This document shows, piece after piece, positions 3,584-61,050 of a DNA stretch of 64,000 nucleotides. This DNA comes from Actinoallomurus soli (GTDB taxonomy: Bacteria; Actinomycetota; Actinomycetes; Streptosporangiales; Streptosporangiaceae): positions 186,001 to 250,000 of the forward strand of contig NZ_JAMXMV010000007.1 in assembly GCF_024055715.1 (NCBI RefSeq). Reading direction: 5' to 3'. The notes below the pieces were generated by a model. That model did no database searches and was not told the origin of the DNA. It saw only the letters and a list, made by a program, of their open reading frames with translations. How positions within the stretch are numbered: the first letter of the stretch is position 1; every line of letters begins with the position of its first letter. The position numbers and the translations under genes were made by a program.

Positions 3584-4846
3584 TCAGCCCCTGATCAGGG
3601 TGGCGACGCACTCCACGTGCTGGGTCATCGGGAAGGCGTCGAACGCGCGCAGCGCGGACAGCGTCCAGCCGTACTCGGAGAAGAACGCCAGGTCGCGGGC
3701 CAGGGTGGCCGGATCGCACGAGACGTACGCGATCCGGCGGCCGGCGAGCTCCGCCACGCGCTTGACGACGTCCCGGCCGGCGCCGGTGCGCGGCGGGTCC
3801 AGGACGACGAGGTCGGCGCGGTTCAGCGTGGACTTGCCGCGGCCGAACTTGATCTGGTCGAGGACCTGCTCGACCTCGCCGCGTTCCACGGACACGTGCG
3901 GGAGGTCGCGGAGGTTGAAGCGGGCGTCGCGGACGGCCTGCCCCTCCGACTCGATCCCGACGACCAGGCCGTCCGAGCCGACGGCCTCGCCGAGCACGCC
4001 GGCGAACAGGCCCGCGCCACAGTACAGGTCGACGGCGATGTCGCCCTTCCGGGGCTCCAGCGTGTCCAGGACGGCCGCGGCGAGCGTCTCGGCGGCGCCG
4101 GGGTGGACCTGCCAGAATCCGCTGCCGCTGACCTGCCACAGCCGCCCGGCGGCCTCCTCGCGGACGAACGGCGGCTTGTCCTCCCGCTTACCGCTGACGA
4201 GGCGTACGGGCGCGTCCATGCGGGGGACGCGGGCCCGGCCCCGGCTGGACAGGACGGCCAGGCGGTCGCCCGTGCCCGCCGACGCGATCGCCTCGACGCC
4301 GGTGGCGCCGGGCCAGCGCTTGCGCTCGATACCGAGCGCCTCGACCTGCGGGTGGGCGATCAGGCACTCGTCGATGGGCTCGATCTGGTGGGAGCGGTGC
4401 TTGCGAAGGCCGATCACGCCGTCGCGGCGGACCGCGAACTGCACCCGGGTCCGCCAGCCGAGGCCGTCCGGGGCGCCCGGCACCTCCTCGACGACGACGT
4501 CGCGCTCGATGCCGGCCAGCCGGCGGAGCTGCTCCTGGACGACCTCGGCCTTCAGCCGCCGCTGCGCGGGCAGGGAGGCGTGCTGCCAGTCGCAGCCGCC
4601 GCAGCGGCCCGGGCCGGCGAACGGGCAGGGTGCCTGGACCCGGTCCGGAGACGCCTCCAGGATCTCCACTGCGTCGGCGCGCAGGAAGTTCTTGGTCTCC
4701 TGCGTCACCCGGGCACGTACGCGCTCGCCCGGCAGGGTGTGCCGGACGAACACGACGCGCCCGTCGTGCCGGGCCACACACCAGCCGCCGTTGGCGACCG
4801 CTCCGATCTGGAGTTCGATCAGCTCAGACGATTCCACCGGCGGCAC
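3584..4846 (-). CDS. TrmA/RlmD-family class I SAM-dependent RNA (uracil-C5) methyltransferase
   Basis: The protein has 420 residues. An N-terminal TRAM domain (about 8-62) is followed by Cys74, Cys82 and Cys85 (CPFAGPGRCGGCDWQH), the start of a [4Fe-4S]-type cluster, with a likely fourth ligand in IDECLIAHP. The C-terminal Rossmann domain has DLYCGAGLFAG, VLDPPRTGAG and the catalytic YVSCDPATLARDL motif. It methylates uridine at C5 in tRNA or rRNA; which site cannot be told from sequence. Its start lies 23 bp inside the upstream permease gene, so the two are coupled. Methyltransferase plus K+ permease plus two TrkA genes is a conserved actinobacterial arrangement. Confidence 0.88.
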   Translation of the reverse strand: MPPVESSELIELQIGAVANGGWCVARHDGRVVFVRHTLPGERVRARVTQETKNFLRADAVEILEASPDRVQAPCPFAGPGRCGGCDWQHASLPAQRRLKAEVVQEQLRRLAGIERDVVVEEVPGAPDGLGWRTRVQFAVRRDGVIGLRKHRSHQIEPIDECLIAHPQVEALGIERKRWPGATGVEAIASAGTGDRLAVLSSRGRARVPRMDAPVRLVSGKREDKPPFVREEAAGRLWQVSGSGFWQVHPGAAETLAAAVLDTLEPRKGDIAVDLYCGAGLFAGVLGEAVGSDGLVVGIESEGQAVRDARFNLRDLPHVSVERGEVEQVLDQIKFGRGKSTLNRADLVVLDPPRTGAGRDVVKRVAELAGRRIAYVSCDPATLARDLAFFSEYGWTLSALRAFDAFPMTQHVECVATLIRG

Positions 4847-6860
4847 GGGTCCCCTCCGATTCGACTTCTTGCTCTGGGCCGTACGGGCGGCGTACGGAGC
4901 CGGGGGCCGGCGGCTCGAACCGGCCCTTGAGGCGGTCGGACGAGGCGAGCTGCCAGGGCACGCTCGTGACCATCACACCGGGCTGGAACAGCAGGCGCGT
5001 CTTCAGTCGGAGCGCGCTCTGGTTGTGCAGCAGGTGCTCCCACCAGCGTCCCACGACGTACTCGGGCAGGAACACGGTGACCACGTCGCGGGGGCTGCGC
5101 CGCCGGACGCTCTTGACGTACTCCAGGATGGGCCGCGTGATCTCTCGGTACGGCGAGTCGAGGATCTTCAGCGGCACGGGCAGCTCCTGCGCGTCCCACT
5201 CCTCCTGGAGCCGCTGCGACTCCTCGGGGTCCACCGCGACGGTCACCGCCTCCAGCGTCGAGGGGCGCGTGGCCCGCGCGTACGCCAGCGCCCGCATCGT
5301 CGGGCGGTGGATCTTGGAGACGAGAACGATGGCGTGGTTGCGGGAGGGCAGCGCGACGTCCTCCCCGGTGACGGCGAGCTCGGCGGCGACCCGGTCGTAG
5401 TGCCGCCGGATGCCCCGCATCATGAGGAACAGCACCGACATGGCGACGCAGGCGATCCACGCGCCGAGCAGGAACTTGGTGATCAGCACCACGACCAGCA
5501 CGATCGCGGTGACGATCCCGCCGAACGTGTTGATGGCCCGCGAGATCTTCATCCGCCGTCGGGCGGCCGGGTCGGTCTCGGTCCGCAGCAGGCGGTTCCA
5601 GTGCCGGACCATGCCGGTCTGGCTCACCGTGAAGGAGACGAACACGCCGACGATGTACAGCTGGATCAGCGACGTGACCGAGGCGTCGTACGCGTAGATC
5701 AGCACGCCGGCCAGCGCGCCCAGGATGATGATGCCGTTGCTGAACGCCAGCCGGTCGCCGCGGGTGTGCAGCTGGCGGGGCAGGTAGCGGTTCTGCGCGA
5801 GCACCGAGCCGAGCACGGGAAAGCCGTTGAAGGCGGTGTTGGCGGCCAGCACGAGGATCAGGGCGGTCATCGTCGTGAGGTACGCGAAGCCCAGCGGGAA
5901 GTTGCTGAACACGGTGTGCGCGACCTGCGCGATCACCGGGTCCGGCGAGACCTCCCTGCCCGCCCGGTCCAGGATGCGGGCGCCCATCGCCGGGTCGCCG
6001 AACTTGGTCTTCGTGATGTACGCCAGCGCGACGATGCCGCCGAACATGGAGGCCGCGATCACTCCGAGCAGCAGCAGCGTGGCCGCGGCGTTCTTCCCCT
6101 TGGGCTTACGGAAGGCGGGCACGCCGTTGCTGATCGCCTCGACGCCGGTCAGCGCCGCGCAGCCGGAGGAGAAGGCGCGCAGCAGCAGGAAGACGAGCGC
6201 GAAGCCGCTGACGCCGACCGCCGTGCCGTGGATCGTCATGTCGGCGGTCGCGGCCCGCAGGTGCGCACCGAACGCCATGCGCGTGAAGCCCCAGATCAGC
6301 ATCAGGAAGACGCCGAACATGAACAGGTAGGTCGGGATGGCGAACGCGACGCCCGACTCCCGGATCCCCCGGAGGTTCATGATCGTCAAGATGGCGACGA
6401 TGAGGAGCGCGGCGAGGACCTTGTGCGGCTGCAGGAAGTGCAGGAGGGCGGCGAGGTTCTCGATCCCCGAGGACACCGACACCGCGACCGTCAGGACGTA
6501 GTCGACCATGAGGGCGCTGGCCACCACGATGCCGGCGTTGCCGCCCAGGTTGGTGGTGGCGACCTCGAAGTCGCCGCCGCCGCTGGTGTAGGCGCGGACG
6601 TTCTGGCGGTAGGACGCGACCACGGTGAGCATGATCACGATGACCGCCCCCGCCACCCAGGGCGTGAAGTGGTACGTCGCGAGCCCCGCGAGGCCGAGGG
6701 CGATCAGGATCTCCTGCGGGGCGTACGCCACCGACGACAGCGCGTCACTGGCGAACACCGGGAGGGCGATCGTCTTGGGAAGTGTCTGCTCGTGCGCTTG
6801 GGCGCTGCGGAGCGCCCGGCCGAGCAGGAGCCTCTTGACGAGGTCTGGAGCCTTCGACAC
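4824..6860 (-). CDS. KimA-like APC-superfamily potassium permease (copy 1)
   Basis: The 678-residue protein has about 12 membrane helices in its first 470 residues and a long cytoplasmic C-terminal region. The N-terminal segment LPVFASDALSSVAYAPQEIL, then GGGDFEVATTNLGGNAG and LTGVEAISNGVPAFRKPK, match the KimA/YdaO-type permeases of the APC family. Bacillus KimA is a high-affinity K+/H+ symporter controlled by c-di-AMP. Two TrkA-type cytoplasmic regulators are divergently encoded 170 bp away, which supports a K+ role. K+ specificity is inferred from family and context. A second copy lies at 9703-11703. Confidence 0.85.
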   Translation of the reverse strand: MSKAPDLVKRLLLGRALRSAQAHEQTLPKTIALPVFASDALSSVAYAPQEILIALGLAGLATYHFTPWVAGAVIVIMLTVVASYRQNVRAYTSGGGDFEVATTNLGGNAGIVVASALMVDYVLTVAVSVSSGIENLAALLHFLQPHKVLAALLIVAILTIMNLRGIRESGVAFAIPTYLFMFGVFLMLIWGFTRMAFGAHLRAATADMTIHGTAVGVSGFALVFLLLRAFSSGCAALTGVEAISNGVPAFRKPKGKNAAATLLLLGVIAASMFGGIVALAYITKTKFGDPAMGARILDRAGREVSPDPVIAQVAHTVFSNFPLGFAYLTTMTALILVLAANTAFNGFPVLGSVLAQNRYLPRQLHTRGDRLAFSNGIIILGALAGVLIYAYDASVTSLIQLYIVGVFVSFTVSQTGMVRHWNRLLRTETDPAARRRMKISRAINTFGGIVTAIVLVVVLITKFLLGAWIACVAMSVLFLMMRGIRRHYDRVAAELAVTGEDVALPSRNHAIVLVSKIHRPTMRALAYARATRPSTLEAVTVAVDPEESQRLQEEWDAQELPVPLKILDSPYREITRPILEYVKSVRRRSPRDVVTVFLPEYVVGRWWEHLLHNQSALRLKTRLLFQPGVMVTSVPWQLASSDRLKGRFEPPAPGSVRRPYGPEQEVESEGTRAAGGIV

Positions 6861-52308: not shown

Positions 52309-52402
52309 CCAGGAGGAGGCCCCCGCCGCTCGCCACCGGATCACCGGCCGCGCGCGATGCGCTGGCACCGCGTCTCAGTGCCACGGCAACAGGTTGAGGC
52401 AC

Positions 52403-52433
52403 GATCGCCGGGGGATACCGATCCCCGGCGATC
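52403..52433. terminator. Hairpin downstream of sepH
   Basis: Arms GATCGCCGGGG (52403-52413) and CCCCGGCGATC (52423-52433) are perfect complements around a 9-base loop. It lies 95 bp after the sepH stop and is a likely terminator. Confidence 0.65.
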
Positions 52434-52454
52434 ACCGTCCCCCGGGGCCTTTCT

Positions 52455-52570
52455 GCGAAGCACCGACCCACGCAGGCCGACCGACAGACCCGGAAGGAAA
52501 CGCCGAACCCCGCGACCACCCTCACACCAGGCCCTCCCGCGAAGCCCCATCCACGCAGGCCGACCGACAG
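52455..52570. repeat. Direct repeat of about 32 bp flanking a short spacer
   Basis: Sequences at 52455-52487 and 52539-52570 share GCGAAG at the start and CCACGCAGGCCGACCGACAG at the end. They lie between sepH and the IS110 transposase, in a 530-bp stretch without a supported gene (52309-52840). Confidence 0.55.
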
Positions 52571-52639
52571 GCTCAGGCACGTCGAGCCCTGGCGATCGCT
52601 CGTTAGGCGATCCTGTTCTGGCGGTCCTTTGAGGGCCGT

Positions 52640-52840
52640 CACCTCTCGGCCCGGTGGGTGTACGGCCTGCGATCGGTCAGCTGCTTGACGGCTTGCGACA
52701 GTGTTACCGGCCCCGCCGGGACGAGGGCGTCCGGACTGGCATCAGGGAATCGCCCCACGAGGGCCGCGGTAACGAGCTTCCGGCAGGCGTCCTCTCCGCG
52801 ACAGAGGGGTGTGGTTCTCCTCCCTCTGGAAGGACGCGAA
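52640..52840 (+). other. Probable IS110 left-end noncoding region
   Basis: About 200 bp directly upstream of the transposase start has no supported gene. IS110 elements carry their bridge RNA in a noncoding end of about this size. The exact element boundary and core were not found, so this is inferred from position. Confidence 0.35.
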
Positions 52841-54049
52841 TTGCACACGGTCGGTTGGGACTGGGGTAGCCGGACCCATTCGGTGACGGTGCTGGACGCC
52901 ATGGGCAGCAAGGCGGCTCGGTGGACGCTCCCGCACACTGAGGCCGGGCTCACCCGGCACGCTACGGCGCCTGGCGGACTACGGCGACGCCTGTGGTCTG
53001 CGGGTCGCGATCGAGACGAGCAAGGGCCTGGTGGTCGATCGGCTGCTGGCGGCCGGACATCCGATCGTGCCGATCCACCGGGGATGTTCAACGCGATGCG
53101 GCCCCGGTGGGGAGCGTCTCGCGCGAAGAGCGACAGCGCCGACAGCTTCATGCTGGCCGACTTGCTGCGCACCGATGGTCATCTCCTGCGGTCGCTGGCA
53201 CCGACCGAGACGACCACGCTGGAGCTTCAGGCGCTGTCGCGGCAGCGCAGCGATTTGGTCGCGACCCGCACCGGCTTGACGAACCAGCTGCGGGCCCTGC
53301 TGGAGGCGCATTGGCCGGGAGCGACCCGGCTGTTCAAGAACATCGATGCGGGGATCTCGCTCGCGTTCTTGGACCGTTTCCCGACCCCGCAGGCCGCCGC
53401 GAAACTCACGCCGGCCAAGCTGGACGCCTTCTTGCGCCGTCACGCCTACACCGGCGGCAAGACCGGAGCCGAGCTCCTCGAACGGCTGCGGACTGCGCCC
53501 AAGGCCGCCAGCAGGGTCAGCTCCGAGATCGTCACCGTCATGGTGAACACCCAGGTCGGGCAGGTCCGTGCGATTGTCGAGGCCATCAAATCCCTGGAGT
53601 CGGCCATCAAGCAGGTCTTGGACGCTCACCCCTACGCCGAACTGTTCCAGGCACTGCCTCGAGTCGGGACGGTGAACCTGGCGCAGATCATCGGCGAGAT
53701 CGGGCCCATGCCGGAGCGCGGCCTGACCGCTGAGCAGCTCGCGGCCGAGGTCGGCATGGCCCCGGTCACCCGGGCCAGCGGCAAGGTCCACACCGTGGGC
53801 TTCCGGCACGCCGCCAGCCGGGCTGCGCGCAAGGCCCTGCACACCTTCGCCGACAACAGCCGCCATGACGATCCGTGGGCCGCTGACCTTTACCAACGCG
53901 CTCGTGACCGAGGCAAACGCCATCCCCAGACCGTTCGCATCCTGGGCAGGGGCTGGCTCCGGATCATGCACGCTTGTTCCCGGGACGGCACACCTTACGA
54001 TCCCGCCATTCACCACTCCCCGCATCGACCCGTGCCCACTGGAACATAG
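52841..54049 (+). pseudogene. IS110-family transposase with two compensating frameshifts
   Basis: A likely TTG start at 52841 gives LHTVGWDWGSRTHSVTVLD, the first catalytic-Asp strand of the IS110 RuvC-like domain. From about 52966 to 53090 the true reading moves to another frame. There LRRLADYGDACGLRVAIETS and KGLVVDRLLAAGHPIVPIHR are encoded. After that, FNAMRPRWGASRAKSDSADS returns to the first frame. The first frame stays open throughout but encodes about 40 unrelated residues, losing the catalytic Glu of VAIET. The C-terminal Transposase_20 domain is intact (ALPRVGTVNLAQIIGEIG, RASGK with the catalytic Ser). It is almost certainly inactive. Confidence 0.82.
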
Positions 54050-54060
54050 GCTTTCCGGCC

Positions 54061-54552
54061 ATGGCGAATTTCGAGCACGTTAAAGCCTCCTTCTGGGGAG
54101 CGGGGACTTACGGGGTTCAACCGCCGTTGACCGATGCCTTGATCCACCAGGCCGAAGAACTCCTCTCGGTGGATCTGCCGCCCGAGTTGCTGGAACTGCT
54201 GCGCCTTCGCAACGGCGGCCCTGTCTCCGACGCGTGGAGTGCTTTCCCCACCCAGCGGCCCACCTCCTGGAGCCCCGACCATGTTCCCTTCACCGATCTG
54301 CACGGCATCGGTCACGACGGGAACGCAACGACCCTGCTCAACAGCCCATACCTGACCACGGAATGGGACCTGCCGCCCCGGCTGGTGCTGCTCTCCGGCG
54401 ACGGCCACTACTGGATCGCCCTGGACTACCGCACCCAGCACGAACCATGCGTCACCTGGTTCGATACCGACCTGGAAGCCGAACTGCACCTCGCCGCCGA
54501 CTTCCGCACCTTCATCGAAGGACTCATGCCAGCCGAAGACCTGGCCGGATGA
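54061..54552 (+). CDS. SMI1/KNR4 (SUKH) family protein
   Basis: The 163-residue protein from the ATG at 54061 has the SUKH layout: a helical start (ALIHQAEELLSVDLPPELLE), LLRLRNGG, and the C-terminal PPRLVLLSGDGHYWIALDYR and CVTWFDTDLEAELHLAADF. SUKH proteins are often immunity proteins of polymorphic toxins. No toxin gene is nearby, so it may be an orphan immunity gene. The start is only 11 bp after the IS110 stop and has no clear ribosome site, so the junction may have cut its original upstream region. Confidence 0.8.
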   Translation: MANFEHVKASFWGAGTYGVQPPLTDALIHQAEELLSVDLPPELLELLRLRNGGPVSDAWSAFPTQRPTSWSPDHVPFTDLHGIGHDGNATTLLNSPYLTTEWDLPPRLVLLSGDGHYWIALDYRTQHEPCVTWFDTDLEAELHLAADFRTFIEGLMPAEDLAG

Positions 54553-55383
54553 CTCAACGACGGTCAACGAAGAGCTGCCGCGACGCTTCCGGTCCTCGCT
54601 ACGCTGCGGTCCGGGTCACCTTGCCACCGATGACCCGGCTCCTCAATGTGGCACCTGAACAGCAGAAACCATTGACGACCGCGCCACCAGCTTGACTCAG
54701 GGAACTGTCGCATCGGGGCGGTCTGCGAAACCCTGCGCAGAGTCCGGCCGGTGTGAATGCGCGAACTGGAGGCGGTGTAGCAATCGGTGAAGCCGCTGAC
54801 AGCCTGCCCATTATCGGGACGAACCACCTGGCAGCCCCGGCTTTCACGAGCGCCATGCTCGTTCGGCCGCCGCGCGCCCGCGTCAGGGGGCGTGGAGTCC
54901 GTCCTGTTATCCGGCCAAAGGGCTCTTGAACCGGCTCGATCAACGACTGCGACGTCGTTAGTGACGTCCCAGGCCCGGCAAACCGGTCACCGTCCGTCCA
55001 CAGCGACGCCACCGAGACAGCGGCGACGGCACAGCGACCGCGACGACGGCACTGAGGCCACGGCGACGGCACGGTGGCCACGGCGACGGCACGGTGGCCA
55101 CGGCGACGGCACGGTGGCGGTTGCGACGGCGATGGCGGCGGCGTCGCCGGGGATATGGACGGGGCGAGCGGGCCCGGCCCGCCGCCGGTCGGCCCCTGCG
55201 ATCCCACCGAGCCGGCCGACTCACGCAGCGCTCCCCCAACGACGCGACGCAACGCCTTCCAACAGCGCAACGCCTTCCCAACGACGCGGCCGGCTCACGC
55301 AGCGCGTTCCCAACGGGCCCCTGGGCCGCAGCGGGCGCCGGCGGCCCGCCGAGGCGCTCCGGCCGGTCGTGCTCGGTGACGGC
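54553..55383. other. Gene-poor accessory stretch with degenerate repeats
   Basis: No gene is supported over these 831 bp. Open frames exist on both strands but are repeat-derived or lack ribosome sites. Besides the 20-bp tandem repeats listed separately, 55200-55320 holds a second degenerate repeat: CTCACGCAGCGC, CAACGACGCG and CAACGCCTTCC each occur twice. It looks like decayed mobile or intergenic DNA. Confidence 0.6.
55021..55140. repeat. 20-bp tandem repeat, about six units
   Basis: The unit CGGCGACGGCACGGTGGCCA is exact at 55061-55080 and 55081-55100 and one-end variant at 55101-55120. More diverged copies lie at 55021-55040, 55041-55060 and 55121-55140. There are no spacers, so it is not a CRISPR array. 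The 20-bp period is not a multiple of three, so it is unlikely to be selected as protein. Confidence 0.85.
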
Positions 55384-55992
55384 CTACGGCGTTTCGTCAG
55401 GAGAGGCTTGGGTGCCCGCGAAGCCGTGCCGCATGATCCGGAGAAGGCGCCGTGCGTCCTGCGCGCCGGTGGCCGCGATGGCGGTCGCGTTCGTCAGGGC
55501 GAGCACGTCGTCCACGGTCAGGCCGACGTTCACGTCACCGCTTCGCTGGGCTCGGACGAGCAATTCCTGGGCCGTGTCCCGCATGGAACGGTGCCACTGG
55601 TCGAACAGCACGGAGCGCCGCTCGTCGCTGTGCTCGGTTCCCGCGGACGCCAGGGCGCGTTTGGTCGCGACGTGAACGACGAAGTCGTCCAGCCACGCGA
55701 AGAGTGCGTCGGCCGCCGATTCGGCGTCGATCAGGGCGGCGCCCTTCTGGCAGAGCGTCTCCACCTCGTCCGCGTAGACCGCCACGATCAGCTCGCTCCG
55801 TGTCGGGAAGTGCCGGTAGAGGGTCGCGTTGCCGACGCCCGCGCGGCGCGCCACCTCGTCCAACGCGACGTCGGGTCCCCTCTCGTCGAAGAGCTCCCTC
55901 GCCGCCGTGAGCAGCGCCCGGGCGTTCCGGGCCGCATCCGTCCTCCGTGGCCGTCCTGAGGGAACCGCCTCGCCCGGCTCCGCCATTCTCAC
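55384..55992 (-). CDS. TetR-family transcriptional regulator
   Basis: The protein has 202 residues (a second Met two codons later could also be used). The N-terminal HTH (ALLTAARELFDERGPDVALD, then VARRAGVGNATLYRHFPTRS) is canonical TetR. The C-terminal helical domain is a SbtR/TetR_C-like ligand pocket. It is divergent to the SnoaL-like gene, and two related palindromes lie between, so autoregulation plus control of that gene is likely. The ligand is unknown. Confidence 0.9.
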   Translation of the reverse strand: MRMAEPGEAVPSGRPRRTDAARNARALLTAARELFDERGPDVALDEVARRAGVGNATLYRHFPTRSELIVAVYADEVETLCQKGAALIDAESAADALFAWLDDFVVHVATKRALASAGTEHSDERRSVLFDQWHRSMRDTAQELLVRAQRSGDVNVGLTVDDVLALTNATAIAATGAQDARRLLRIMRHGFAGTQASPDETP

Positions 55993-56006
55993 GCTCCCTG
56001 CTTGCG

Positions 56007-56060
56007 AAACGGGGAGTTCCCCGTTTACGGTGACGCCAGTCTAACCGGGGAGCTCCCCGG
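56007..56060. promoter_or_regulatory. Twin TetR operators
   Basis: Two palindromes share the core CGGGGAG-YTCCCCG: AAACGGGGAGTTCCCCGTTT (56007-56026) and CCGGGGAGCTCCCCGG (56045-56060). Their centres are 36 bp apart in the 124-bp gap between tetR and the SnoaL-like gene. This is a typical TetR repression layout. Confidence 0.8.
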
Positions 56061-56116
56061 ATCGGCGTCGTCCCTGAGCGGTGCGCCTCCCACACCACGC
56101 GAAAGAAAGAGATGCC

Positions 56117-56518
56117 ATGGCTCTCACCTGCGAAGACCGCTTCCTCATCGCCGAGCTGATCGCGATGCACGGGCACCTGTGCGACAGCGGAGAGCTGGAA
56201 CGGCTGGGCGAGGTCTTCACCCCCGACGTCACCTATGACGTCACGGACTTCGGCCAAGCGCCGTTGCGCGGATTGAGCGCGCTCGCCGACGCGGCACGCG
56301 CCCTGGGGGACCGCAATCCCGTCGGACACCACGTCACGAACGTCGTCCTCACCGAGCAGGCCGACGGCCGCGTGCACGCGCGGTCCAAGGGGATCGGCAT
56401 CAACGCCGACGGCACGAGCGGCAGCGTGACCTACGAGGACACCGTCGTGCGCACCGGCCAGGGTTGGCGGATCGACCACCGCACGTTGCTCGCCCGCCGG
56501 GCTCCCCTGGGCGGATGA
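56117..56518 (+). CDS. SnoaL-like (NTF2-fold) protein
   Basis: The 133-residue protein from the ATG at 56117 begins with ALTCEDRFLIAELIAMHGHL, then GELERLGEVFTPDVTYDVTD, and ends VTYEDTVVRTGQGWRIDHRT. This is the cone-shaped SnoaL_4/NTF2 fold. Such proteins are small dehydratases, cyclases or hydrolases. The reaction is not predictable here. It is controlled with the divergent tetR through the twin palindromes. Confidence 0.82.
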   Translation: MALTCEDRFLIAELIAMHGHLCDSGELERLGEVFTPDVTYDVTDFGQAPLRGLSALADAARALGDRNPVGHHVTNVVLTEQADGRVHARSKGIGINADGTSGSVTYEDTVVRTGQGWRIDHRTLLARRAPLGG

Positions 56519-56794
56519 CCTCCGGTCGCCAGGGGCGCCGCCGGGCCGGCCTCGTACCGCCGAGGGGACGGCCCCGCCGGTCAGGCGCTCCGCCAGATGG
56601 AAATGGCGCGCTTTTCAACTCCTGACCAGGATGAATACTGACAGTTAATAACCGGTACACCGACAGCCCTTGAACTTCCCCAAGATCGGTATTGCATTCG
56701 TGGACCGTTCCGATGCACCATGACGAAGGCCCGCTAGACGATCTTGAACGGTGGGTCCGACCGAGTGCCGCATCACGGAGAGGAGTCCACAGCG
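56519..56794 (+). promoter_or_regulatory. Promoter region of the small-peptide gene
   Basis: No gene is seen in this 276-bp gap. A distinctly AT-richer stretch lies at about 56628-56715 (with GTTAATAACC and TTGAAC), as expected of a promoter in GC-rich DNA. A strong ribosome site, GGAGAGGAG, precedes the peptide ATG by about nine bases. I could not fix -35 and -10 elements. Confidence 0.45.
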
Positions 56795-56941
56795 ATGTCG
56801 ACCGTGACCGCAGACCACCCCCAGCTCGATGCCCTGAACCCATCACTCGACCTCGGTGAATTCATGATCGAGGGCACGACGGGAAGCAGCAAGGCGGGGA
56901 CTTTGAGCGACTTCAACACCCCGCAGTATTTCTGGGTCTGA
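56795..56941 (+). CDS. 48-residue RiPP-precursor-like peptide
   Basis: The ATG at 56795 has a strong Shine-Dalgarno. The peptide has an acidic, hydrophobic leader-like half (HPQLDALNPSLDLGEFMIEG) and a Ser/Thr/Gly-rich section TTGSSKAGTLS. It ends in an aromatic tail DFNTPQYFWV. It has no Cys, so it is not a lanthipeptide or thiopeptide. It is followed by a 13-bp hairpin and an M29-type metallopeptidase gene, with no radical-SAM, YcaO, LanB/M or P450 gene around. The size, leader-like LDLGEF motif and coupling to one enzyme suggest a ribosomal natural product precursor or signal peptide. The class is unknown. Confidence 0.65.
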   Translation: MSTVTADHPQLDALNPSLDLGEFMIEGTTGSSKAGTLSDFNTPQYFWV

Positions 56942-56949
56942 GCAGATCG

Positions 56950-56988
56950 GCGCGTGCACCGCGGGCTTCGGGCCGGCGGTGCACGCGC
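56950..56988 (+). terminator. Hairpin/attenuator between peptide and peptidase genes
   Basis: Arms GCGCGTGCACCGC (56950-56962) and GCGGTGCACGCGC (56976-56988) are perfect 13-base complements with a 13-base loop, starting 8 bp after the peptide stop. A partial terminator here would give much more peptide transcript than enzyme transcript, as often seen in precursor/enzyme operons. Confidence 0.75.
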
Positions 56989-57034
56989 GACCTGATGGGC
57001 GCCCGGATGGGACACCTGCTTCGGAGGCTGACGA

Positions 57035-58006
57035 GTGACTGAAATGTGGGAGAAGTCGGTCGAGCGTTTCACGGCATACCTACCGAAATCCGTGTCGACC
57101 TGGCTGGTGATCATCGATGCCGCCGCCCACGCACGCCTGGCGGCATCGCTGCTGCCCCGGCTCAGCGGCGATGTGCGGGTCCTCCGACTCGGCGAGGTGT
57201 CCGTCGACGAGGTACGGGCGGCGGCGGTCGAGTACGTCGACCAGGACCACGTCGGCCTCATCGCCTTCCACGCCCGGAACTATCCCGAGTACCAGGAGGC
57301 GCTGGTGCGCTTCGCCGACTGGCCGAGCCGCCGGGTGAAGCTGTGCCTCGAGGTCTGGGACGACAACTTCGCCGCGCTCTTCGCCGAGGAGCCACAGGAG
57401 GTGGCCCGCCGATGCGACGGGCTCCGCCGACGGCTGACCGGCGAACGCACGCTCACCTATCGGGCCGCCGACGACGCGACCGAACTGCTCTCCTTCGACT
57501 GCGCGCCGGACGACTGGGTCGCCTACAGCGGTCTGGAGGACTACGACTACCTCCTGCCGAGCGGGGAGGTCGCGTGCGTCCCGGAGAGCGCGAACGGCAC
57601 CCTGCCGGTCGAAGGGTGGATCATCGGGACCATCCCGTTCGGCCGGAAGTACGGCCGGATCCGCCCGGGCGATCTCACCGTCCACATCGCGAACGGCCGG
57701 GCGACCGGCGTCACCGGGCGCAACACCGAGCTCTGCCGGGATCTGGAGATGGCCTTCGACCGGCTGCCGGGCGTGCGTTCGATCGGCGAACTGGGGATCG
57801 GCCAGTCGAAGGCCGTCACCGAAGCGGCCAGATCACACCGGGCGGCGTTCACCTGGCACGAGCGCAACTACGGAGTGCACATCGGGTTCGGCGCCGAGCT
57901 GAGCGAGACCGCCGACCCCGACCAGCGGGCCACCGCTCACCACCTGGACATCGTCCTGTCCCGCGGGCGGCTGACCGGGCAGGCGGGACTGCTGCTGAGC
58001 TGGTGA
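57035..58006 (+). CDS. M29-type (aminopeptidase T-like) metallopeptidase homologue next to the small peptide gene
   Basis: The protein has 323 residues from a GTG at 57035 with GGAGG seven bases upstream. The C-terminal half has the M29 pattern: LPSGEVACVPE (Glu178), IGELGIGQ (Glu252), HERNYGVHIGFG (His282) and HHLDIVL (His303, Asp305). Together these correspond to the five dinuclear-metal ligands of the family. The N-terminal half (about 1-150) is shorter than in AmpS/AmpT (about 410 residues) and carries LIIDAAAHARL-like and ALVRFADWPSRRVKL segments. I infer a soluble two-metal peptidase or related hydrolase acting on the product of the adjacent peptide gene. General aminopeptidase activity is the alternative. 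Confidence 0.72.
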   Translation: MTEMWEKSVERFTAYLPKSVSTWLVIIDAAAHARLAASLLPRLSGDVRVLRLGEVSVDEVRAAAVEYVDQDHVGLIAFHARNYPEYQEALVRFADWPSRRVKLCLEVWDDNFAALFAEEPQEVARRCDGLRRRLTGERTLTYRAADDATELLSFDCAPDDWVAYSGLEDYDYLLPSGEVACVPESANGTLPVEGWIIGTIPFGRKYGRIRPGDLTVHIANGRATGVTGRNTELCRDLEMAFDRLPGVRSIGELGIGQSKAVTEAARSHRAAFTWHERNYGVHIGFGAELSETADPDQRATAHHLDIVLSRGRLTGQAGLLLSW

Positions 58007-58025
58007 CCGCAGCAAGACGGCCGGC

Positions 58026-58090
58026 CCGGGTGTGGCCGCACGAGACCGCGGACCGGGGCGTGACCGCACGAGACCGCGGACCCGGGTGTG
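58026..58090. repeat. About 28-bp tandem repeat after the M29-type gene
   Basis: Units ending CCGCACGAGACCGCGGACC occur at about 58026-58052 and 58053-58080, with a partial third from 58081. They fill the gap between the convergent M29-type and SpoIIE-type genes. No hairpin terminator is seen. Confidence 0.65.
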
Positions 58091-58096
58091 GCCGCC

Positions 58097-59260
58097 TCAG
58101 AGGCGTACGACGACGAGGGCCGTGTCGTCCGCCGCGCCGCCGGCCACGCCGAGGTCCGCGAGGAGCCGGTCGGCCAGTGACTCGGGATCCAGTCCACTGT
58201 GCCGGCCGACACTGTCGGCGAGGCGGCGCAGGCCGTCGTCGATGTCCTCGCCACGGCGCTCGATGAGTCCGTCGGTGTAGAGCACGAGGGTGGCACCCGA
58301 GGCGTAGTGCTGCTCGGCCTGCGGCCGCGGCTCGCCCGGCGTGCGCAGGCCGCGCGGCGGGTCGGTGGCCTGGTCGAGGAAGTCGACGGTGCCGTCGGGT
58401 TGGAGGAGGACCGGCGGCAGGTGACCGGCGCAGCTATAGGTGATCTTCTGTTCGGACCTGTCGATGACGGCCTGGACGGCCGTGCTCGCCAGCGCCCCCT
58501 CGACCGAGAGCGCGTACCGCCCGAGCGCCTGCAGGGCCGGGGCGGGTTCGGCGAGGGACTGGACGGCGGTGCTGAGCGCGCTGCGCAGCTGGCCCATGAC
58601 CCCGGCGGCCGACAGTCCGTGTCCGACGACGTCTCCGACGGCCACCGCGAGCCGCTTCTCGTCCAGCTCGATCAGCTCGTACCAGTCACCGCACACGTGC
58701 AGCGAGTCGACCGAGGGCAGGTAGCGCACGGCGACGTCGTCGCGCTGTTCGAGATCGATCGCCGGCAGCATCGCCTGTTGGAGGGTGAGCGCGACCCGCC
58801 GCTCGCGCGCGTACGCCCGCCTCAGCTCCTCATTGATCTCGTGGAGCTCCTTGGCGCGGGCGAACAGCTCGGCCTCCATGGCCTGGTACCGCTCGGGGTC
58901 CTCCTTGGCGCGATGGGTGACGAACGCGGTCACGTCCTCGGTGCGCACGACGAACAGCATCGCCTCGCCGTCCGAGCCGAGAACGGGACTGGTGATCGTG
59001 CTCCAGTACCGCTCCTCGAACTCCCCGGGGCGGCCCGCCACGGGGATGTCGTACTTCATCGGCCCCTGGATGTCCCGCTGCCGCGTGACCGCGGCGCGAC
59101 GCACGGACGTCTCCAGACTGCGCGAGCCCCGCAGCCCGGCATCATGTTCCGTGGGGAAGGCGTCGAACATGTACCGGCCGACGAGCTCCTCCCTCGTACG
59201 CCCGGTGGTGTCGGAGTAGCACTGATTCGCCTCGACGATCACCAGCTCGGGTGTCAGCAC
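58097..59260 (-). CDS. PAS-domain PP2C-type (SpoIIE) phosphatase
   Basis: From the GTG at 59260 the protein has 387 residues: a PAS domain (LVIVEANQCYSDTTGRTREE), a coiled-coil linker (about 125-165, ELFARAKELHEINEELRRAY) and a SpoIIE/PP2C domain. The phosphatase part has CGDWYELIELDEKRLAVAVG, DVVGHGLSAAGVMGQL and LVLYTDGLIERRGEDIDDG. It likely dephosphorylates an anti-sigma-factor antagonist in a stress pathway. The frame stays open upstream to about 59350 and encodes the expected PAS start (IDYEALFAATPSPCLVLTPE) with GGAGG in place. However, no standard start codon exists there, so the true N-terminus is uncertain. Confidence 0.85.
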   Translation of the reverse strand: MLTPELVIVEANQCYSDTTGRTREELVGRYMFDAFPTEHDAGLRGSRSLETSVRRAAVTRQRDIQGPMKYDIPVAGRPGEFEERYWSTITSPVLGSDGEAMLFVVRTEDVTAFVTHRAKEDPERYQAMEAELFARAKELHEINEELRRAYARERRVALTLQQAMLPAIDLEQRDDVAVRYLPSVDSLHVCGDWYELIELDEKRLAVAVGDVVGHGLSAAGVMGQLRSALSTAVQSLAEPAPALQALGRYALSVEGALASTAVQAVIDRSEQKITYSCAGHLPPVLLQPDGTVDFLDQATDPPRGLRTPGEPRPQAEQHYASGATLVLYTDGLIERRGEDIDDGLRRLADSVGRHSGLDPESLADRLLADLGVAGGAADDTALVVVRL

Positions 59261-59454
59261 CAGACACGGACTCGGAGTCGCCGCGAACAGCGCCTCGTAG
59301 TCGATATAGGCGTGAATCTTGGCAGCCGTGACACACCTCCGGGATGGGCGGGATTACCCAGAGTCTACGAGATCCATCCCCATGACCTGCGAAGATGTTC
59401 GTTCATCCGAGCTGCACCGACACCATGATCACTGGCCGTCACTGCTCTCTATGG

Positions 59455-59574
59455 TCAGCGCACGCCAGTGATCTCGCGGTCAGCCCCACTCGCCGACCCC
59501 ACGGCAGCGACTTCGACGCAGCTGGTGTTCTCCTCGCCGCTGTGCGTCGACTTCCGCCACTCGGCTCGGATCAG
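59455..59574 (-). pseudogene. Truncated DUF397 remnant
   Basis: Directly after the XRE gene, a frame from a CTG at 59574 (overlapping the XRE stop) reads IRAEWRKSTHSGEENTSC, then VEVAAVGS, and stops at 59455. WRKSTHSG and SCVEVA are the DUF397 signature. The normal second half (a W..F-containing region) is missing and no ATG/GTG start is present. DUF397 proteins pair with Scr1-type XRE regulators, so this is a decayed partner. Confidence 0.65.
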
Positions 59575-60401
59575 GCCCGGTCGATCCATGTCTGCCCCAT
59601 CGCTCCGACGATCATGCCGATCGATTCATCCGGCGACAATGCCGCCGCTCGCAAGCGATCGTAAGTCAAAGCGATCTCGGCGATCTCTTCCTTCCTGTCG
59701 ATCAGCCATCCCCCCTGACGGCCTTCCGCGAAGGCGACCGGCGACTGATCGACGAACTCGAAGATGGTGAACGGCCCGGTGGCCCCGGTCAGCTGCGCAG
59801 CGGCGAAGGGCAGCACTTGCAAGTTCACGAATGGCAGGCGGGCCAGGTCGACCAGCCGCCGGAGCTGGGCGAGGGTCATCTCGGCGTTGCCGATCGGCTG
59901 CTTCACAACCGTCTCGTGCAACACGACCCAGAGCAGCGGCGGGTCGGATCGGTCGAAGAGCGATTGCCGCCCGAGACGTCTCGCGACGCCGAGTCCGATG
60001 TCGTCGTCGCTGATCATCGGCCGGTTCGCGCGGATGACCGCCTGTGCATAGTCCTCGGTCTGGAAGAGGCCGGGGATGAGGCTGTTGGCCCAGATGCTGA
60101 TCTTGTTGGCCTGGGATTCGAGTTCGACGTAGTGCTCGAACCAGCGAGGGGCCGAGCGGACGAGCTCGGCGAGGCGGGTGAGCATGTCGGGCAGGGCGAA
60201 CAGCGTGTCCGCGCGTTCGGGGAAGCCGTCCGGTGGGTTGCGGCGGGCGGTCTCGACGCTGGCGACGGTGGACAGCGCCCAGCCGAGCTTGTGGGCGAGC
60301 TCGTCGAGGGTCCAGCCGTTCCGCTCGCGCAGGCGGCGCACCTCCGCGCCGAAGAACGCGCCGAGCGAGGAGAACGCGTCGAGCTTGCGGGGCGGGGGCA
60401 T
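59571..60401 (-). CDS. XRE-family regulator with DUF5753 (Scr1-type)
   Basis: The protein has 276 residues. The N-terminal HTH (EVRRLRERNGWTLDELAHKL, then GWALSTVASVETARR) is followed by the DUF5753 domain from about residue 85. It has FEHYVELESQANKISIWANS, LIPGLFQTEDYAQAVIRANR, LHETVVKQPIGNAEMTLAQL and NLQVLPFAAAQLTGATGPFT. This is the very common actinobacterial Scr1 type, thought to act with DUF397 proteins in toxin-antitoxin-like or developmental control (the WhiJ/BldB systems). It is divergent to an anti-sigma-like ATPase, the usual third member. Confidence 0.9.
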   Translation of the reverse strand: MPPPRKLDAFSSLGAFFGAEVRRLRERNGWTLDELAHKLGWALSTVASVETARRNPPDGFPERADTLFALPDMLTRLAELVRSAPRWFEHYVELESQANKISIWANSLIPGLFQTEDYAQAVIRANRPMISDDDIGLGVARRLGRQSLFDRSDPPLLWVVLHETVVKQPIGNAEMTLAQLRRLVDLARLPFVNLQVLPFAAAQLTGATGPFTIFEFVDQSPVAFAEGRQGGWLIDRKEEIAEIALTYDRLRAAALSPDESIGMIVGAMGQTWIDRA

Positions 60402-60495
60402 GGGGCACCTCGATCGTGTAACCGGAATCCTTCCGCAGCGTAATCATGTGGCGACAGTCTGTCCCGGTGAAATCAGCAACCCACGGGAGGAAGTC

Positions 60496-60936
60496 GTGAC
60501 ACGGTGTGCGCTACCGGGAGAGGTCAGCGGGGTGCTGCTGGCCGACGTACGGCTGGTCAACGCCCCGGAGTCGGCGTCGGCGGCGCGGCGGATCGTCAAG
60601 GCCGTCACCTGCGTCTGGGGTGCGGCGGCGGTCGCCGACCGCGCCGAGCTGCTCGTCTGCGAGCTGGTCGCCAACGCGACCAGGCACGCCCGTGACCGGC
60701 TCGGCACGAACCTGCGCCTGGTCGTCTCACGCGACGCCGAACGGCTGCGCATCGAGGTCCACGACGCCGATCCCGCGCTCCCCCGGATCCGGCACGGCGG
60801 GCTGCTGGAGGAGACCGGCCGGGGCCTCCTGCTCGCCGAGACGCTGGCCGACCGGCTCGGCTGGCAGGTGCTGGCGCGGGGCAAGGCCGTCTACGTCGAG
60901 CTGATCGCCTGGCCGCCGACGGCGGAAGCGCGCTGA
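60496..60936 (+). CDS. RsbW-like ATP-binding (HATPase_c_2) protein
   Basis: The 146-residue protein from a GTG at 60496 (GGGAGG upstream) holds the GHKL ATP-binding fold: LLVCELVANATRHARDRLG (N-box), IEVHDADPALPRI and GRGLLLAETLADRLGW (G-box). These small proteins resemble anti-sigma-factor kinases and occur beside Scr1-type XRE genes in many copies per genome. The target is unknown. Confidence 0.88.
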   Translation: MTRCALPGEVSGVLLADVRLVNAPESASAARRIVKAVTCVWGAAAVADRAELLVCELVANATRHARDRLGTNLRLVVSRDAERLRIEVHDADPALPRIRHGGLLEETGRGLLLAETLADRLGWQVLARGKAVYVELIAWPPTAEAR

Positions 60937-61050
60937 CGAGAGCCTTCTCAGACGCCTGTCAGGGGCTATCAGGCGGATGTGCGTGGGATGTCAGGGGTGC
61001 CGAGGACAGTGAAGGTCGTACGCACATGGACCTCACGGAAGAAGACCCCC

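Follow-up and report, generated by a model that had tools for sequence, protein, structure and literature searches.

A 48-aa peptide gene next to a gene for a predicted M29/NicX-fold metal protein in Actinoallomurus soli: a candidate minimal two-gene RiPP-type pair

The window, by which we mean the whole stretch of 64,000 nucleotides that was analysed, belongs to an Actinoallomurus soli genome of 9.4 Mb (60 contigs, 98% complete) and carries a small open reading frame (ORF) followed on the same strand by a single enzyme gene (Table 1). The ORF check agrees with the original prediction on the coordinates, on a Cys-free peptide of 48 aa with the C-terminus FNTPQYFWV, and on the enzyme gene downstream of it. 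The ribosome site 5′ of the peptide's ATG was rated good, and the GC content of the ORF at codon positions 1, 2 and 3 (0.52/0.46/0.81) is coding-like at the third position, while the enzyme gene, which starts at a GTG with CGGAGG upstream, has values of 0.71/0.48/0.90. RNA folding of the 96-base gap between the two genes gave a z-score of −3.9, with 0 of 200 shuffles as stable. Hairpins are found at the same place in loci L076 (z −1.96) and L077 (z −2.34), and the stem-loop is possibly a partial terminator or an mRNA stabiliser.

Table 1. Features of the peptide–enzyme locus in window coordinates, genes running from start codon to stop codon
Feature	Position	Strand	Details
48-aa precursor-like peptide ORF (MSTVTADHPQLDALNPSLDLGEFMIEGTTGSSKAGTLSDFNTPQYFWV)	56795..56941	+	ATG start, upstream GGAGAGGAG, GC3 0.81
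Inverted repeat, 17-base arms, 5 bases between (56950-56966/56972-56988)	56950..56988	+	Gap between peptide and enzyme genes
Predicted M29/NicX-fold metal protein, 323 aa; E178, E252, E276, H282, H303, D305; Leu289 at catalytic-Tyr place	57035..58006	+	

On one flank the pair is followed outwards by genes for a SnoaL-like protein and, divergently oriented, a TetR regulator, with SUKH, IS110 transposase and DUF3071 (SepH-like) genes farther away; the neighbour scan of the other flank found an ABC exporter in addition to a PAS-SpoIIE phosphatase and an XRE/DUF5753 regulator. Among the scanned neighbours (TetR, SnoaL, SpoIIE phosphatase, XRE, ABC, IS110 and SUKH), none that directly adjoins the pair is an oxidase, maturase or exporter; the original prediction likewise noted no known RiPP maturase near. 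The TetR and SnoaL genes were considered as parts of the system and rejected, because SnoaL is genus-wide (matched in 8/8 genus genomes, our own included) and stands apart from the M29-like gene: G010 and G012 carry SnoaL but gave no match for the M29-like gene, and the M29-like match of G006 is on a different contig. Close SnoaL copies are present in G008 (82%), G010 (74%) and G006 (65%), with a partial copy in G012 (72%). The interval from the DUF3071 gene to the ABC exporter (window 52309-60950) is a variable spot that holds the IS110, SUKH and TetR/SnoaL genes, the peptide pair, the phosphatase and the regulator. The SUKH gene, immediately after the IS110 transposase (53974-54552), encodes a protein of the SUKH-1 (SMI1/KNR4) family.

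Searched alone against Pfam, NCBIfam, PHROG and PADLOC, the 323-aa protein gave zero matches; this includes Pfam PF02073, which matched 5 of the 11 rows of alignment A1 (best 3.8e-5). A profile of the window protein with its relatives matched AmpT, PepS, AmpS and NicX in the PDB, a result that is partly built in because the profile contained true M29 rows, L084 and L085 among them. The fold search is more independent of such rows: its structural model was built from an alignment that combined the window protein with those of A. purpureus and L087 and contained no M29 aminopeptidase, although the model is weak (pLDDT 49.5, pTM 0.43; TM about 0.4). Since a search with this model gave only NicX (three chains), PepS and AmpT at E ≤ 0.001, among 50 of 1360 matches listed, the fold class as modelled is M29/NicX. 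The five M29 metal ligands named in the original prediction (Glu178, Glu252, His282, His303 and Asp305) are invariant in 17 aligned proteins, and Glu276 joins them as a sixth; in a wider alignment of 26 proteins, departures at the ligand positions are confined to two distant rows, L057 at one site and L060 at several. The estimate of about 90 missing residues was also correct, as the protein is 85–95 residues below the solved M29 chains (408–418 aa). In the tree, the deep branches lack resolution, and the grouping of the window protein with the other peptide-linked clades is not proven.

M29 aminopeptidases share an EEHYHD motif in which changing any residue, Tyr included, abolishes activity, and a spacing of seven residues separates the catalytic Tyr from the metal His that precedes it (H345/Y352 and H308/Y315), according to PMC7023490 and PMC4661694. 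The window protein has Leu289, not Tyr, at this position. The His+7 Tyr is absent in 15/15 peptide-associated proteins, the window and A. purpureus proteins included, where L, A, E, N or G is found instead, and present in 7/11 other M29-like proteins; the two groups are our own assignment and their rows are related, so Fisher values overstate the contrast. Most of the other M29-like proteins, to judge by where the ORFs start and by a single annotated record, seem to be encoded in catabolic operons or by genes that stand alone. From the alignment, the window protein is probably not a peptidase. The original prediction had read it as a metallopeptidase or metallohydrolase, and the peptide as a possible signal that matures through trimming of its N-terminus. 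Trimming of the peptide to a signal or an antibiotic by a dedicated aminopeptidase or metallohydrolase would be in keeping with the M29/NicX fold and the complete metal site, but because Leu289 replaces a Tyr whose mutation abolishes the activity of two M29 enzymes (PMC7023490 and PMC4661694) this reading is improbable, and neither earlier suggestion is supported. It is further weakened by the crocagin proteins CgnB and CgnE, for which PMC10070186 reports that no aminopeptidase activity was observed.

Searching 341 family genomes with the 48-mer gave matches in 51 at E ≤ 1; as the best non-self E was 0.03, these are at chance level, and no convincing homologue was found. Shuffle tests of the 48-mer against other peptides gave nothing significant (best p 0.04 of nine, uncorrected), and an end-to-end test was no better. 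The likeness to the Burkholderia peptide described below (LDLGEFMIEGT/IDLLEWMKEDT and FNTPQYFWV/FGTALWPV) is tempting and was set aside as not significant in the similarity tests. A small ORF by itself is a weak signal, because under identical rules 45/210 unrelated genes also have one upstream. We also considered whether the 48-mer is an orphan lasso-peptide precursor, with a P.L..G.F....TTG leader and the core SSKAGTLSD..., since its leader spacing and the Asp at core position 9 resemble those of lasso precursors. PF13471, the lasso B2 leader protease family, has 0 matches in the 98%-complete genome, with the control search positive in 2/14 genomes, and for that reason we rejected the lasso reading as scarcely credible.

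The enzyme of A. purpureus is 92% identical to that of the window, and the two are under purifying selection (dN 0.040, dS 0.206). No peptide lies beside the A. purpureus enzyme, whose gene comes directly after the DUF3071 gene; the homology between the two loci begins at the enzyme's ribosome site, and the 48-mer has no match at E ≤ 1 in the A. purpureus genome (G008). In the third Actinoallomurus genome compared, G012, the fetched part of the interval contains a SnoaL remnant and other cargo, and neither the 48-mer nor the enzyme was matched. Because one relative has the enzyme without the 48-mer and the other has an interval without either gene, the window peptide was gained in the window lineage or lost in A. 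purpureus. These data bear on the possibility that the two genes are chance neighbours, the 48-mer being spurious or an unrelated small gene and the M29-like protein having another substrate. The peptide-less enzyme of A. purpureus, the missing homologue, the frequency of upstream ORFs in background genes and the cargo of the DUF3071–ABC exporter interval, which differs among the three genomes, would all be expected if this were so; however, the 48-mer has a good ribosome site and GC3, the gap has a strong stem-loop, as in Burkholderia, and the pairing recurs in related loci. We regard coincidence as a serious minority possibility.

At E ≤ 0.001 the enzyme occurs once in its own genome and matches 12/341 family genomes, own genome included; one match (G054) is interrupted by a stop, shows no frame of M29 type across the stretch read, and was taken as chance. 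In the class sample, the family profile matched 9/394 genomes at 1e-6, again own included, with a full-length gene in G353, an N-terminal fragment alone in G646, and six others falling in other M29-like groups; the families of G353 and G646 have matches in 1/12 and 1/35 genomes. As so few genomes match per family and class, the window M29-like gene is accessory and patchy, and the housekeeping role that the original prediction had named as its possible refutation does not apply.

By hand we assigned an upstream peptide ORF in 13 of the 15 peptide-group loci (12/14 without the window; none in L014 and L021), a count that was not blind because the sequences were visible during assignment. A mechanical small-ORF test counted 11/15 peptide-group loci and 1/11 other M29-like loci, to be read against the background rate given above; in L021 and L024 the ORF it counted differs from any assigned by hand, and it left uncounted the hand-assigned ORFs in L023, L024, L025 and L056. 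Incomplete enzyme frames kept L063 and L087 from being counted among the 15. The conserved pairing that the original prediction had named as support is borne out as a pattern, since several genera from two phyla have M29-like genes with a small peptide ORF next to them, and fails for the window peptide itself, which lacks a convincing homologue and is missing from A. purpureus.

A group of relatives forms a long clade (L016, L018–L025 and L056, with incomplete frames in L063 and L087), whose proteins share the ligands and the loss of the Tyr with the window protein, but differ from it in being 364–395 aa long with a DCC-containing C-terminal tail. In this clade, 9 of the 10 complete members have an upstream peptide ORF by hand (none clear in L021). 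The peptides of L018 and L019 are homologous, as are those of L023, L024 and L025, and others are found in L016, L020, L022 and L056; the L018 peptide requires a TTG start. Pfam scanning of some of the relatives' neighbours (20 genes, plus 10 in a further scan) found P450 and MFS genes at L018, MFS genes at L016, L020 and L021, PhyH at L022, a B12-radical SAM gene at L023 and L024, and a DyP-type peroxidase at L056; the scanned long-clade loci thus differ from the window in having oxidative or MFS genes near, and several of the peptides in a W..xY[ST]T core. Contig 83 of G218 carries both L021 and L022, M29-like genes of the long clade with a spacing of about 8 kb, one with PhyH and a peptide, the other with MFS and no clear peptide. 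In L023–L025 a conserved peptide of 57–58 aa (GIRVD[IV]VRDDID.PHERDWGI) accompanies the M29-like gene in three genomes, and together with the B12-radical SAM gene, which the scans of L023 and L024 revealed, this is likely a RiPP cluster.

The core motif [AS]W[SY][IV][SA]Y[ST]T is spelled SWSVSYTTSR in L016, AWSISYTTFR in L022 and AWYIAYSTRS in L087, and none of four spellings was found in the searched literature. In L063 (9459-9890, minus strand) a 143-aa ORF contains the core twice (SAWSISYSTS and TAWSISYSTS) upstream of a truncated long-clade M29-like gene of 110 aa; it is likely a two-core RiPP precursor beside a decayed partner. Shuffle tests gave p ≤ 0.0025 for the peptide pairs L087/L063, L016/L022, L018/L022, L056/L087 and L022/L063, and p of 0.0075–0.0095 for L016/L063 and L087/L022, while similarity of the Burkholderia, L020 and L025 peptides to L018 or L022 was within chance.

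A relative of 317 aa, 24–25% identical to the window protein, is carried on replicons of Burkholderia stagnalis, B. cenocepacia and B. arboris. A 40-aa peptide occurs upstream of this enzyme in 3/3 plasmid-collection records and has a dN/dS of 0.14–0.17 in two B. stagnalis comparisons; in the loci read, 58 bases separate it from the start of the enzyme. In the 18-kb and 11-kb stretches compared, the only DNA common to B. stagnalis and B. cenocepacia starts ~50 bases upstream of the peptide and stops 3 bases past the enzyme, and their flanking genes differ; the match between B. stagnalis and B. arboris begins about 100 bases earlier, and B. cenocepacia and B. arboris have longer flanks in common. 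The IMG/VR contig L087 (IMGVR_UViG_2791355399_000004) represents a prophage of P2 type with Klebsiella phages as relatives (51/64 matching phage records); as cargo between its lysis genes and baseplate gene V it has a 59-aa peptide ORF and a split-frame M29-like gene, which together span 4750-6147. It was matched in viral_contigs scans with the A5 proteins and with L087 itself, and scans with the A1, A3, A6, L025 and L076 proteins found no relative.

The near-bare two-gene block in Burkholderia, the cargo site in the P2-like prophage and the enzyme that A. purpureus keeps without an adjacent peptide could also be explained by a toxin-antidote or immunity pair, in which a toxic peptide is sequestered by the M29-like protein. 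Several long-clade loci with oxidases, radical SAM enzymes and MFS transporters look biosynthetic, however, as does the two-core precursor of L063; PADLOC has no match to the window protein and only weak ones to relatives (E 0.005 or worse). We therefore hold this explanation to have little probability. As a defence system in the wider sense the locus was rejected, with nothing convincing in PADLOC and nothing in PHROGs.

In the searched literature, M29-derived peptide-binding proteins occur in only one worked-out pathway, that of crocagin. PMC10070186 states that CgnB and CgnE possibly evolved from Zn-dependent M29 aminopeptidases, have no Pfam match, differ mainly in the N-terminal part and are monomeric, with the dimer interface largely missing; both bind the precursor CgnA, and CgnB retains six ligands. 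Roughly 100 genomes, among them those of Actinobacteria and Betaproteobacteria, contain homologues according to the same text, and single-copy homologues have intact sites with putative precursors nearby by RiPPER. The window protein resembles these proteins, so far as they are described there, in being M29-derived and shortened, lacking a Pfam family and having a six-ligand site. The ligand order is similar (E161/E252/E274/H280/H291/D293 in CgnB and E178/E252/E276/H282/H303/D305 in the window), and a small peptide gene with an aromatic end is nearby. In contrast to crocagin, the window has no adjacent CgnC-type dioxygenase and no second CgnB/E copy in the genome, and its peptide is 48 aa ending in QYFWV rather than 21 aa ending in Ile-Tyr-Trp (Tyr-Trp core). 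The sequence profiles had no match to CgnB (6zsv) or CgnE (6zsu) at E ≤ 10, so membership with CgnB by sequence is not shown, and neither was among the 50 of 1360 fold matches listed for the poor model (pLDDT 49.5). A crocagin system is thus not supported, and working like CgnB is the best-supported analogy.

The M29 aminopeptidases AmpT, AmpS, PepS and AmpII have the same fold and the ligands E, E, H, H and D in common with the window protein, which differs from them in Leu289 for Tyr, in its length and in having no PF02073 match. NicX, a 2,5-dihydroxypyridine 5,6-dioxygenase (7cn3), is the best fold match of the window protein among the 50 of 1360 listed (E 2.6e-10), and by profile the short proteins also match it best (E 0.003), but at the positions of Glu ligands 178 and 252 of the window family the alignment shows F and H in NicX.

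Our leading reading, to which we give about an even chance, is that of a minimal two-gene RiPP-type pair in which the M29-fold protein handles a precursor peptide rather than trimming it. The 48-mer would be the precursor, with residues about 1–30 leader-like and an aromatic C-terminal part, and the 323-aa protein, with its di-metal site kept and the aminopeptidase Tyr lost, would bind it and present or chemically modify the aromatic end, as CgnB and CgnE may do for CgnA, without trimming. As none adjoins the pair, an oxidase, leader protease or exporter, if any, would act in trans. The data show the layout of the genes, the fold class, the ligands, the loss of the Tyr and the recurrence of peptide and M29-like gene pairs in other bacteria, whereas the role of the 48-mer as substrate, its modification and the kind of modification are what we infer; the relatives' loci support a peptide-handling role as far as gene content can indicate one, and with good parallels elsewhere the pairing in the window is plausible. 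A bolder version, which we consider only tentatively, is that such pairs are free-standing RiPP cassettes in which a peptidase-dead M29-fold protein is the sole dedicated maturase of an aromatic tail. Actinoallomurus, Burkholderia (with its near-bare block) and a P2-like prophage would all be places where such cassettes recur, and in larger actinobacterial relatives the same protein would have become the centre of P450, PhyH or radical-SAM pathways, with the W..xY[ST]T core in some of them.

The original prediction had also proposed a new architecture. The idea is not wholly new, as PMC10070186 describes M29-derived peptide-binding proteins and the mining of single-copy homologues for precursors. 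On the best reading, the window pair is M29-derived peptide handling of a known kind, and the bare pair without oxidative partners is its novel aspect. If shown, the loss of the Tyr with the metals kept, the pairing with several unrelated cores and the occurrence of some near-bare blocks would provide a genome-mining handle, and the chemistry of CgnB would become testable in smaller systems. If the pairs are indeed free-standing cassettes, the M29/NicX fold would serve ribosomal natural products more generally as a scaffold for handling peptides.
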